A stretch of DNA of 64,000 bases from Malachius bipustulatus (Eukaryota > Arthropoda > Insecta > Coleoptera > Melyridae), in NCBI GenBank assembly GCA_910589415.1, contig OU342633.1, positions 6,920,858 through 6,984,857 of the forward strand, written 5' to 3'. A program made the position numbers and the translations under genes. The notes beneath the pieces were generated by a model, which ran no database searches, was not told where the DNA came from, and saw only the letters and a list, made by a program, of their open reading frames with translations. This document shows, one piece after another, positions 14,301-27,792 of this stretch (position 1 is its first letter; every line of letters starts with the position of its first letter).

Positions 14301-14618
14301 TTCAAGGTTGACCAGGTGGGCGATGTAGCTAGGAACATATGAATATGAAGTTATCCATAGGCCGGGCAGGATACATGGCAACGCGAACAGCCTGAGCAGA
14401 ATGCACAGCGAAGAAGATAATTACTTAAACATCACGTACGAATATTTTCAGACGTACCAACAGCAACATGATACGCCGGTCGCGAAAAACATCACAGAAA
14501 TTCAAGGAAATCTATTTACGGCCTCGGAAGATCACGCTTTGGCACATTGCGTATCACAAGACTTCACCATGGCTGAAGGAATTGCGTTGGAATTTAGAAA
14601 AATTTATGGATCAATAAA
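11335..14618 (+). CDS. pol: Gypsy Pol, first part: G-patch, repeats, RT, RNase H, start of macro domain
   Basis: All in one phase, -1 relative to protease. From 11356 a 53-residue segment reads MGFQPGKGLGKDLQGIV... GRGAIGAYG, a G-patch, a Gly-rich RNA-binding motif; a TAA follows at 11515. An array of charged repeats (11545-12540) precedes reverse transcriptase: LCIDYRGLNAVT, TTVDITQAYHQ and, after a TGA at 13453, MPFGLCNAPATFQRFM and YLDDIIIF, the catalytic YxDD. The connection leads to RNase H (IDACGTGMGAIL; then TEKELAA and TDHRPLKW). A TAG at 14326 interrupts just before HRPGRIHGNAN, which normally closes RNase H. From about 14491 the N-terminal half of a macro domain begins (GNLFTASEDHALAHCVSQDF, then MAEGIALEFRK) and is cut at 14618 by the DNA transposon. 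Three stops make this copy inactive; frames otherwise agree. Confidence 0.85.
11356..11514 (+). other. G-patch domain segment
   Basis: Fifty-three codons beginning MKMMLRMGFQPGKGLGKDLQ and continuing through IETQLRKGRGAIGAYGSE, matching the G-patch spacing (hhx3GaxxGxGxGxxxxG). It lies between protease and RT, as G-patches do in betaretroviruses. A TAA at 11515 ends it; the same phase then runs into the RT frame. Confidence 0.7.
11545..12540 (+). repeat. In-frame coding repeats upstream of RT (54-bp and 78-bp units)
   Basis: About five 54-bp units (LSKGTE.EQG.RII..KG, 18 residues, starts at 11545, 11599 and onward) pass into 78-bp-class units built from RSKGIEEEK, SSSSYVEQGSRI and EDIR. All indels keep frame. 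The product is a highly charged Lys/Glu/Ser-rich linker of about 330 residues with no sign of catalytic content. Confidence 0.9.
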
Positions 14619-14989
14619 CCCAGTAAACACATATACGTCATAGAAACGTTGAAAAAACGTACTACTAGTTGAAATAACGTTAGTCGTTGAAAATTTAAAC
14701 GTTGTTTTGTGGTTACATTAGAAACGTTTAAAATATATGTCGCAAAAACGTAGTTTTATAACTAAATATCAATTTTTAGTTTTGAGTAACAGTTTTATTT
14801 ACGTTAATAAAATACGTTTAATATTTATTTCTCTTCAAGATGTTATTATGACGTTGCGGACATAAACTTTTTGCACTAAAATGTTATTAGTGTGTTACTA
14901 TTTAAAGTTTAAATCTACGTTAGTTATAAACGGTAGAAATTTGGATATAAGTTGACGTAAATATAACGTGTAATTATCAGCAATTTTAA

Positions 14990-25229: not shown

Positions 25230-25692
25230 CTATAAACCATCAGATTGAAAAACAAATAAAAATTAACGTTGAAAATATGTTAAGTTTCATTAAAAATTAA
25301 CGTCTATTTCATATTGAAAACAAGTGATAAGTAAAGGTAAAACTAACCTTAAAAATTAACCTTAAAGTTACATAAAAAATAAACGTCAATTTCATGTTAA
25401 AAACAAACGTCGATCTTATGTAAAAAAACAACTTTATATGAATGTAGAAATCAAACCCTGTTTTTCTTAAGAATATAACGTTATATTATGTTGGTTTTTC
25501 GACAATTGTTTGACGTCATAAAAATACATTTTTTTCACATTAGAAAAAACGTCTATAAAATGTTGTTTTGTAACTGTAAAATTACGTTATAGGTTGAAAA
25601 TTGCGTTGAATCCGAGGACATTATAACCTAAATTCAACCGTCGGTCACCGGTTGTCATAAAACGTTTTTATAACGTACGTGTGTTTACTGGG
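25230..25692 (+). repeat. Right subterminal region of the transposon
   Basis: Rich in AACGT/ACGTT words like the left array, but without the regular 336-bp order. Ends with the terminal repeat complementary to that at 14619. Confidence 0.7.
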
Positions 25693-27792
25693 AACGAGCT
25701 GAAACAACAGGATAAGGAATTAGGGGAGGTCGCACAGTTAAATTTACCATCTCGAAACATTTATTATTTAATCACCAAGAGTAGATGTTACCAGAAACCT
25801 TCGTATAAATTATTATGGATAGCTCTTACAAATCTAAAACAGGTTTGTAAAGAAAATCATGAAACTCATTTGGCCATACCGAAACTAGGTTGCGGACGAG
25901 ACAATTTAGAGTGGACAAAAGTGAGGGATATGATACATTTTCTGTTTTTTAATTCTGACCTGAAAGTAACGATTTATGATTTGGAAATTACTTCAATGAA
26001 AATAGCAATAGTCAATAGGGATCAAAACAACTTGAAGTGGGAGCCCATATGGGACAAGGAGAGGATAAAAGCTCTACAGGAACAGGACGATTATTGCAAA
26101 ATTATTTTACACCAATACCAACAGAAAGACCCAGAGGTCTTGGAGAAATATTGCGTAGACCAGGATGGAGTGTTGTATCTGTCAAGGAATAGAGACCATG
26201 AAGATCTACTAATGATACCCAAGGTGATGAAGGGAGAAGTGCTCAAGGAATTTCATGACTCACCGATGGTAGGACACCCGGGACAAGAAAAGACCTTACA
26301 GTTCATTGAAACAAGATTTTTCTGGTTAACAATGAGGAAAGATGTCATTGAATACTGTAGAAGCTGTGAGAAATGCCAAGAAAGGAAGACATCTCCGCAC
26401 CTGGGTAAAGCTCCCTTGAAATCATTCAAAAATCCATCAGAACCATTCGAAATGATCTCCATGGATATCGTGGGACCGTTAGTCAGCACGTATAGGGGCA
26501 ATAAGTACATACTTACAGTGCAAGACTTGTTTTCAAAATACCCTGAAGCAATACCCCTTCCGGATCATAAAGCTGAGACAGTAGCTAGAGCGTTTGTGGA
26601 GAATGTCATAACACGACATGGCACACCAGGAAAATTGCTGAGCGACTTGGAAGCGGAATTCACCTCAAAATTAATGAAAGAAATCTGTAAATTGTTGAGA
26701 ATCCGTCAGATACACACTGCGAGTTATTCACCTCAAGAAAATGGTAGTATTGAGCGGATGCACCGAGACATGAAAATCATGCTTTCACATTATGTAGAGA
26801 AGAACCAACGAGATTGGGATGATTTTGTACCATACGTATTAATGGCTCTAAGGGGAAGGGTGCATTCGTCAACAGGATACAGCCCCTTCTACCTAATACA
26901 CGGGAGAGAGCAAAAGTTGCCGGTGGATGACATCATAGCAACGTACAGGAAAAGGTATAACTACGAAGAAGATTTTTCGGCAGAACTCCCAGGAAGAATG
27001 AAAAACGTGTATCAGGCCGTGAGAGAAAATTTGGAAGCAGCTGGAGCGAAGAGAAAGGTTCAGTACGACAAGAAGACTAAGGAGAAACATTTTGAGGAAG
27101 GAGACTGGGTGTACATCAAAAACATGGCAGTCAAGTTAGGTCAGTCAAAGAAGCTAAGTGCAACTTGGATTGGTCCCATGAAAATAGTCGAGAAAATAGG
27201 AGAAAAGACATACTTGGTAAAACACCCGGAAAAACAAAAGGAGTATACCGTTATGATCGATAGGATGAAGCCATATGTGGAACGAGCCGACCATCCAGAG
27301 AATTCAAGTCAGAAGAAAAGGGAGCGAAACCTCTTAAGGGGTAAAATTAACATCGGAAAGAGTGAGAGTGAAGTAGAAGGAGGAACGGAAGAAGAAGAAG
27401 AGGAAGAAGGAGAGTTGTATGAAGGAACAGGAGAATCGGACCTAGAGATCCGAGACACTCGAAAAAACCAAAGAACCAAAGACAAACACACATACGCAGG
27501 GCGAAGAACTAACAAGGGTACCTATTTGGAGGAAGAAAACAGTCCGGAAGACAGCGACTATGATCACGAGTCTGACTGGGAGAACGACGAAAGTCGCAGA
27601 AAGAAGAAACAGATAAGTGAATACACCCAGAAATATTGGCCCTACTGCTCGCCAGTCGTGTATTACCCAGGACCTGCACTGATTCCCGCCCCTCCTGAGG
27701 AAAGGCGTAGAGTACCAGCACGAGAATCACCAGAAAGATACCCCAGAAGATCTACGAGACCTAGGCGACCACCTGTTCGTCTAGATTTGTAA
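25693..27792 (+). CDS. pol: Gypsy Pol, second part: macro domain C-half and integrase
   Basis: The pol frame resumes directly after the DNA transposon. Residues 1-105 complete a macro domain: IYYLITKSRCYQKPSY, then LAIPKLGCGRDNLEW and DLKVTIYDL. The Lys after YYLIT and the Asp of GCGRD fall where human TARG1/OARD1 has its catalytic Lys84 and Asp125 (recalled alignment). A zinc-binding HHCC domain follows (HDSPMVGH ... CRSCEKC). The integrase core has its acids in MDIVGP, LLSDLEAEF and QENGSIERMH, spaced D-59-D-35-E. The chromo-like/C-terminal region (WVYIKNMAVKLG; WIGPMKIVEKIG) precedes a Glu-rich, then Pro/Arg-rich tail. It would insert the cDNA. This part has no stop and ends at TAA 27790. 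Confidence 0.88.
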   Translation, partial: NELKQQDKELGEVAQLNLPSRNIYYLITKSRCYQKPSYKLLWIALTNLKQVCKENHETHLAIPKLGCGRDNLEWTKVRDMIHFLFFNSDLKVTIYDLEITSMKIAIVNRDQNNLKWEPIWDKERIKALQEQDDYCKIILHQYQQKDPEVLEKYCVDQDGVLYLSRNRDHEDLLMIPKVMKGEVLKEFHDSPMVGHPGQEKTLQFIETRFFWLTMRKDVIEYCRSCEKCQERKTSPHLGKAPLKSFKNPSEPFEMISMDIVGPLVSTYRGNKYILTVQDLFSKYPEAIPLPDHKAETVARAFVENVITRHGTPGKLLSDLEAEFTSKLMKEICKLLRIRQIHTASYSPQENGSIERMHRDMKIMLSHYVEKNQRDWDDFVPYVLMALRGRVHSSTGYSPFYLIHGREQKLPVDDIIATYRKRYNYEEDFSAELPGRMKNVYQAVRENLEAAGAKRKVQYDKKTKEKHFEEGDWVYIKNMAVKLGQSKKLSATWIGPMKIVEKIGEKTYLVKHPEKQKEYTVMIDRMKPYVERADHPENSSQKKRERNLLRGKINIGKSESEVEGGTEEEEEEEGELYEGTGESDLEIRDTRKNQRTKDKHTYAGRRTNKGTYLEEENSPEDSDYDHESDWENDESRRKKKQISEYTQKYWPYCSPVVYYPGPALIPAPPEERRRVPARESPERYPRRSTRPRRPPVRLDL

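Follow-up and report, generated by a model that had tools for sequence, protein, structure and literature searches.

A stretch of 64,000 nucleotides from the beetle Malachius bipustulatus, here called the window and numbered from its first letter, contains at 4957-36830 one broken copy of a long terminal repeat (LTR) retroelement of the Ty3/gypsy type. The question raised by this locus is what two short coding pieces, which lie in the Pol frame on either side of an inserted DNA transposon and resemble human TARG1 (OARD1, C6orf130), represent, and what they might do for a retroelement. Between the LTRs, which were found by self-BLAST, Pfam identified the domain order Gag CCHC, aspartic protease, reverse transcriptase (RT), RNase H and integrase, as in Ty3/gypsy elements. 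The copy is damaged by two in-frame stops in Pol, an interruption of Gag and insertions, including the large one in the TARG1-like region. Our results indicate that the two pieces flanking the transposon together almost certainly make up a macro domain of the TARG1/OARD1 type.

The interrupted domain in the Pol frame of the window copy

13456-14328, plus strand: Pol, RT and RNase H (Pfam RVT_1 7.5e-23, RT_RNaseH 6.1e-35), with an in-frame TAG at the end
14488-14618, plus strand: macro N-terminal half (N-half; GNLFTASEDHALAHC ... MAEGIALEFRKIYGSI)
14619-25692, unstranded: DNA transposon within the macro domain
18141-20183, plus strand: transposase-like open reading frame (ORF) of the insert, DUF4218/tnp2-like (Pfam DUF4218 2.4e-8; Transposase_21 0.0082, under the cut-off)
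25693-25983, plus strand: macro C-terminal half (C-half; IYYLITK ... PKLGCGRDNLEW ... VTIYDL)
25777-25779, plus strand: codon of the Lys84 equivalent
25900-25902, plus strand: codon of the Asp125 equivalent
26215-26733, plus strand: integrase, with the H2C2 zinc domain at 26215-26394 and the rve core at 26437-26733 (Pfam 1.1e-22 and 1.2e-13)

In phmmer searches of PDB, the N-half matched residues 14-65 of the human TARG1 chain 2lgr (E = 7.7e-8) and the C-half residues 50-146 of chain 4j5r (E = 1.5e-21). On the TARG1 scale these independent matches join up to within some two residues, the N-half match ending in two query residues that belong to the insert, and the two halves are therefore taken to form one macro domain. 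A preliminary description of the window, made from its letters, had proposed this TARG1/OARD1 identity, and the motifs that it quoted were found in their places. Its placement of the domain between RNase H and integrase was borne out by Pfam, with RNase H upstream of the macro and the H2C2 and rve domains of integrase downstream. We also found that 26 of 41 residues of the N-half are identical to those of a stand-alone TARG1-like ORF (L004).

The equivalents of both catalytic residues, already predicted from the letters, are present in the alignment to 4j5r, for which we assumed an offset of 6 between the chain and protein numbering of TARG1. Asp125 has a catalytic role in TARG1. A catalytic role is likewise described for Lys84 (PMC8501950). 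A significant match to the Pfam Macro model (PF01661), which the preliminary description had named as a check, was not obtained: the N-half gave no hit and the C-half only 15 bits against a cut-off of 22, and scores ranged from 13 to 18 bits in the three window-type pieces scored. Since Pfam Macro stays below its threshold, routine annotation would miss the domain. The C-half also matched the NCBIfam model of the DarG antitoxin (3.8e-10, 39.5 bits), far under the model cut-off of 250.

The ascription of the interruption to an 11-kb DNA transposon also held. The insert, of about 11 kb, is bounded by 32-nt terminal inverted repeats that are 88% complementary. An 'AA' was duplicated at the insertion, and the empty site is preserved in a second copy of the window family (L006), which carries the same macro without the insert.

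Undisrupted copies in the genome

We searched the 544-Mb genome, the one in which the window-type architecture was established. The uninterrupted copy L006 matched TARG1 over residues 2-138 at 6e-34, with DarG weaker at 0.0024, and another locus, L008, held a nearly whole domain (1.3e-30). A query joining the RNase H end to the macro N-half gave at least 59 matches, a lower bound as 150 of 227 candidates were scored. At least 38 places, the window included, spanned 98 or more of the 104 residues at 63-100% identity; for 32 of the 38, the surrounding open frame is 1245 amino acids or longer. The rest comprised one shorter match at 61%, six at 30-31% and 14 that were macro-only or weak. With the C-half joined to integrase, for which all 144 candidates were scored, 111 matches were obtained, and in 35 of them, again including the window, a window-like macro C-half runs into integrase. 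Undisrupted copies thus carry the domain at the same place, as the preliminary description had anticipated.

The copies were sorted into subfamilies A (the window and L006), B (L007-L025) and C (L026-L034 and eight places not fetched). The Lys84 and Asp125 motifs are kept in all 28 A-C loci scored (L006-L024 and L026-L034, a set that leaves aside the window, L025 and the eight unfetched places). The 263 codons from the RNase H end to the integrase start are free of stops in 25 of these 28, with one stop in L027 and six each in L029 and L030. RNase H, macro and H2C2 lie in a single frame in both loci scanned with Pfam, L009 and L026. Subfamily B is young and recently amplified: in 120 of the 153 pairwise comparisons of 18 loci, 800 bp are identical; for subfamily C this holds for two of 36 pairs among nine loci.

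These copies bear on the possibility of an annotation accident, in which unrelated pieces, or a host TARG1 gene, would by chance have come to lie beside a transposon. The two in-frame stops and the large insertion in the window Pol could suggest as much. Yet the domain recurs in dozens of copies, with its frame and position unchanged, and is whole in L006, which refutes this explanation and leaves it practically no probability.

Degenerate and deleted forms

At the same place in Pol, subfamily D (L035-L040) has a TARG1-like stretch, for which L036 matched TARG1 at 1.1e-8, in frames that reach 1769 amino acids. A further form, E, is represented by L085 (C1:73350629), one of five similar places read, in which RNase H, a shortened macro and H2C2 share one frame. 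Its C-half matched TARG1 at 1.4e-14 with the lysine and aspartate kept, and by these matches E is another Gypsy lineage with a shortened TARG1-like C-half between RNase H and integrase.

The preliminary description had named copies without a macro domain at this place as evidence that would count against it. Ten such integrase-side matches exist, nine at 57-65% identity in frames of 1153-1516 amino acids and one at 97% in a 587-residue frame. Sister Pols that never had the domain were considered as their source. The three of these ten that were read (L086, L087 and L088) show, by eye and within 0.7-0.8 kb, no RNase H either, and repeat or leader sequence runs straight into the integrase start; they look like derivatives of subfamilies B and C that have suffered internal deletions. 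In L086 and L088 a different repeat (KGLQELGSRNN...) stands ahead of integrase.

A second architecture with the macro behind integrase

The protein search with the C-half, whose length rule admitted about 397-1262 amino acids and put window-type frames of 1778-2323 amino acids elsewhere out of reach, returned a single protein, P0003. This is a Gypsy Pol whose macro lies C-terminal to integrase. We refer to this arrangement as F-type. A scan of a viral contig collection found no relative of the window macro. With the macro of P0003 as query, 39 proteins were collected, itself included, of which the named ones come from Molorchus minor and Aromia moschata (longhorn beetles). In three of them (P0004, P0026 and P0028) a single deposited sequence runs from protease through RT, RNase H, integrase and macro to a CCCH motif. 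The F clade also includes shorter proteins, made up of macro and tail, from Brassicogethes, Pyrocoelia and Callosobruchus, all beetles, and from the leafhopper Macrosteles. By motif, the lysine was counted in 34 and the aspartate in 33 of the 39, the misses including truncated models and P0027, in whose sequence both residues are visible. Precomputed PF01661 matches were present in none of the 39.

Over the integrase of an F-type relative the best PDB match is Ty3, and the identity to the window integrase is 37%. Among three long F-type Pols the macro is 58-62% identical. Identity is 26-33% in the linker that precedes it, 44-58% in the protease and 73-87% in RT, RNase H and the integrase core. 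A structure model of one F-type macro-plus-tail protein, P0045 (the window-type domain being known from sequence), had a mean pLDDT of 77.5 and matched TARG1 4j5s with a TM score of 0.96 by target length, followed by DarG 5m3e at about 19% identity. Fold matches to this model in BFVD were predicted proteins: VP8 of Kadipiro virus (42% identity) and proteins of a CRESS DNA virus, flavi-like, virga-like and iridescent viruses.

The F-type is also present in the window genome, where two loci were read (L084 and L089). L084 is one of ten F-like macro matches in a row at C7:6008892-6062408, four of whose nine spacings are close to 5.6 kb; this looks like a tandem array of an integrase-macro-CCCH element.

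A single capture or two

A tree of 42 macro domains separated the RNase H-integrase type (five rows, support 98/97) from the F-type (17 rows, 100/99), and the latter grouped with multi-copy stand-alone TARG1-like ORFs of the window genome (99/94). Holding the two types together was not rejected (approximately unbiased test, p-AU 0.385; 0.183 in an earlier tree with the window C-half as the only representative). The trees were midpoint-rooted and contain long branches (the window C-half in the first, L036 and L085 in the second), and five stand-alone rows were left out of the second. Both the best tree and the differing location within Pol lead us to favour, with reserve, two separate captures of a TARG1-type macro.

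The stand-alone TARG1-like ORFs form a multi-copy family in the genome, six members of which are in the tree among the F-type macros. Eleven were noted (L004, L041-L048, L050 and L053), of 136-290 amino acids; most end in ILVCHW or similar, and two are shorter or cut.

Selection on the macro domain

For the selection comparison we used one locus each of subfamilies A, B and C, in which the macro comprises 139 gap-free codons between RNase H and integrase. The proportion of nonsynonymous differences (pN) was 0.164-0.228 and that of synonymous differences (pS) 0.80-0.87, at which synonymous sites are saturated, giving pN/pS values of 0.21 (A-B), 0.26 (A-C) and 0.28 (B-C). Control stretches of the same loci gave 0.09 and 0.16 for a part of RNase H, 0.14 for RT/RNase H, 0.08 and 0.20 for the RNase H end with the linker, and 0.18-0.22 for integrase; one of them reached a pS of 1.04, a sign of saturation. 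The macro domain is under purifying selection in A-C, with somewhat weaker constraint than its neighbours.

These values can be set against the view that the macro is a passenger, a host fragment that served as a spacer in the linker between RNase H and integrase and is now decaying. Such decay would agree with the different ways in which D and E have degenerated and with the lower conservation of the macro relative to RT, RNase H and integrase. It does not sit well with 139 gap-free codons and low pN/pS at saturated synonymous sites, with the far greater conservation of the F-type macro than of the linker before it, or with the presence of the domain in two architectures. We consider the passenger explanation quite improbable.

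Relation to known systems

In PDB, the window halves, L006, L008, L036 and L085 all match TARG1 best, and Lys84 and Asp125 of TARG1 have equivalents in A-C. Unlike TARG1, the domain here forms part of a retroelement Pol, with RNase H on one side and integrase on the other, and subfamily D is without the catalytic residues. DarG comes second to TARG1 among the fold matches of the F-type model and is a weak sequence match for the window C-half, L006 and L008; the identity of the fold match is low. The Pol domains next to the window macro are RNase H and integrase. The F-type Gypsy elements (P0003, P0004, P0026, P0028; L084, L089) share with the window a TARG1-type macro adjoining integrase in a Gypsy Pol, but the macro lies behind integrase, is followed by a CCCH finger and belongs to a clade of its own.

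Two retroelement systems are closest among those described. In a Gypsy lineage of Ectocarpus, Pol includes NADAR (PMC12477816), a domain that reverses the ADP-ribosylation of guanine (PMC11543638). As here, a Ty3/gypsy Pol has captured a domain of ADP-ribose chemistry; unlike here, that domain is NADAR and not macro, its place is N-terminal and, according to the passages concerned, its authors propose RNA processing. Fish epsilon-like endogenous retroviruses (ERVs) have macro domain proteins (Basta 2009, as cited in PMC4977317). They too are retroelements with a macro domain, but they belong to Retroviridae and encode it as additional ORFs, as that citing source describes them. These fish ERVs and the brown-algal NADAR Gypsy are the nearest precedents. 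A Ty3/gypsy element with a macro domain was not found among the papers listed in the literature searched, which was judged mostly by title and the start of the abstract, with preprints and most subscription papers outside its scope. The domain may be under-reported in such elements, because Pfam misses it in those looked at.

What the domain might do

TARG1 removes ADP-ribose from acidic residues and also from terminal phosphates of DNA and RNA (PMC8053099). Taken together, these TARG1 activities, the Ectocarpus NADAR Gypsy and the macro folds in arthropod-associated viruses lead us to infer an integrase-linked eraser, and the two arrangements in which the macro is attached to integrase, ahead of it in A-E and after it in F, suggest that it acts in the integration complex. 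In the explanation that we propose, the macro would be an active ADP-ribosylhydrolase delivered by the element, clearing ADP-ribose from its complementary DNA (cDNA), its integrase or both so that integration can proceed. It would be carried in the particle as part of an RT-RNase H-macro-integrase protein, or freed from it by the protease. The ADP-ribose that it strips would sit on the element's own cDNA, at terminal phosphates and at thymines of single-stranded parts, and/or on integrase and the proteins around it, at acidic residues. As a result the cDNA would be completed and integrated despite host ADP-ribosyltransferases. We judge this explanation, the likeliest of those considered, to be as a whole evenly poised between right and wrong. 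Its parts differ: the domain is probably enzymatically active in A-C, and a relevant substrate in nucleic-acid or integrase ADP-ribose, by analogy with human TARG1, is plausible though somewhat short of an even chance.

Several observations weigh against an active eraser. The macro diverges somewhat faster than its Pol neighbours, with 61-69% vs. 63-86% identity and pN/pS of 0.21-0.28 vs. 0.08-0.22. In subfamily B the loop is altered to GCDED and LAHC to LANC. In the four of six subfamily D loci that are readable there (L036, L037, L038 and L040), YYLITK is replaced by YYLIIN or YYLIVN and no GCGxD loop is left, so that both catalytic residues are gone, with Asn at the place of Lys84 and no Asp at that of Asp125. 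The one E locus read has no macro N-half. The D and E forms speak against catalysis always being needed.

Subfamily D lends weight to a different role, in which the macro would be a reader that binds ADP-ribose or the ends of poly(ADP-ribose) (PAR), directing integrase to strand breaks or to chromatin that is ADP-ribosylated. Chromodomains, which are thought to guide the integrase of chromoviruses to marked chromatin, offer an analogy. The chromodomain lies at the C-terminal end of the chromovirus Pol (PMC12440569), which is the place of the macro behind integrase in F, and in A-E the macro adjoins integrase as well. TARG1 itself gathers at DNA damage in a PAR-dependent manner (PMC8053099), and subfamily D retains its TARG1 match in long frames without the catalytic residues. 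On the other hand, the lysine would be dispensable for a pure reader, and both lysine and aspartate are kept in every A-C locus scored and in most F-type proteins. We hold a reader to be rather unlikely.

Action on small molecules has also to be weighed. The macro would then act on O-acetyl-ADP-ribose or on the ADP-ribose phosphates that arise when tRNA is spliced, with effects on the tRNA primer or on NAD metabolism inside the particle. The preliminary description had suggested either such processing of tRNA-derived ADP-ribose phosphates or a role in countering host defence. PDB entries name human TARG1 O-acetyl-ADP-ribose deacetylase 1, and MACROD1, MACROD2 and TARG1 hydrolyse O-acetyl-ADP-ribose (PMC8053099). 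Such a role would leave the fusion beside integrase in two positions unexplained, and we regard it as very improbable.

Returning to the integrase-linked eraser, a wider form of it can be put forward with considerable reserve. Gypsy elements may have acquired a TARG1 macro on two or more occasions, at opposite sides of integrase, to serve as an eraser dedicated to their own cDNA and integration complex; arthropod hosts would restrict such elements by ADP-ribosylating nucleic acid or integrase, and subfamily D would have turned the eraser into a reader. The retention of the domain, including in recently multiplied copies, suggests that these elements may face ADP-ribose marks when copying into DNA. 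If true, this would amount to a host defence by ADP-ribosylation of reverse-transcribing elements, of which none was found in the literature searched. The study of ADP-ribosylation of DNA and RNA in animals is still young, and only a few natural targets are known. A TARG1-type domain beside integrase, in several families and two architectures, makes the in vivo ADP-ribosylation of retroelement cDNA or integrase directly testable, with parallels in the brown-algal NADAR Gypsy and in the macro folds of predicted proteins from arthropod-associated RNA and DNA viruses.

Other features of the window copy

4957-7092, plus strand: 5' LTR (TG...CA), by self-BLAST with the ends read
9228-10118, plus strand: C-terminal part of Gag with three CCHC matches (Pfam zf-CCHC 5.5e-15, three stretches), Gag being interrupted upstream
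10094-11239, plus strand: aspartic protease (Pfam RVP 1.9e-5)
11518-13455, plus strand: Pol, with tandem-repeat leader, dUTPase-like stretch and RT start, and an in-frame TGA at the end
28081-29367, plus strand: 428-residue ORF between Pol and the glycoprotein (ORF list)
30308-31171, plus strand: N-terminal part of a chuvirus-type envelope-like glycoprotein (PF24664 Monjiviricetes_fusion 7.5e-70)
31096-32322, plus strand: glycoprotein, probably continued here in a different frame
32537-36830, plus strand: 3' LTR, interrupted at about 33530-35601 (self-BLAST)

Both element ends are flanked by ATAT, which precedes 4957 and follows 36830. The two LTRs aligned in three stretches by self-BLAST, with identities of 99.7% over 993 bp, 97.0% over 233 bp and 97.2% over 941 bp. 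The dUTPase-like match before RT (3.3e-4) reached 20.9 bits against a Pfam cut-off of 22, and the 428-residue ORF had no Pfam match.

The PF24664 glycoprotein, known from one copy, sits between Pol and the 3' LTR. Its probable continuation was assigned from the ORF, which has a hydrophobic stretch near its end. The relevant passage of PMC10084718 reports no clear case of a Gypsy element that captured a chuvirus glycoprotein, and the glycoprotein of the window copy looks like such a capture. Anakin (PMC7642597, PMC12440569, PMC10084718) is likewise an LTR retroelement with a chuvirus-type glycoprotein, but it belongs to the Pao group and not to Gypsy, and the passages on it mention no macro domain.

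Between protease and RT there are in-frame tandem repeats (10778-11128 and 11488-12605) with spacings of 117 nt and of 54/81 nt. The insertion in the 3' LTR (33530-35601) contains an 877-bp self-complementary stretch, detected by self-BLAST, and an ORF on the minus strand (35213-35389) that presumably resembles the start of a THAP domain.

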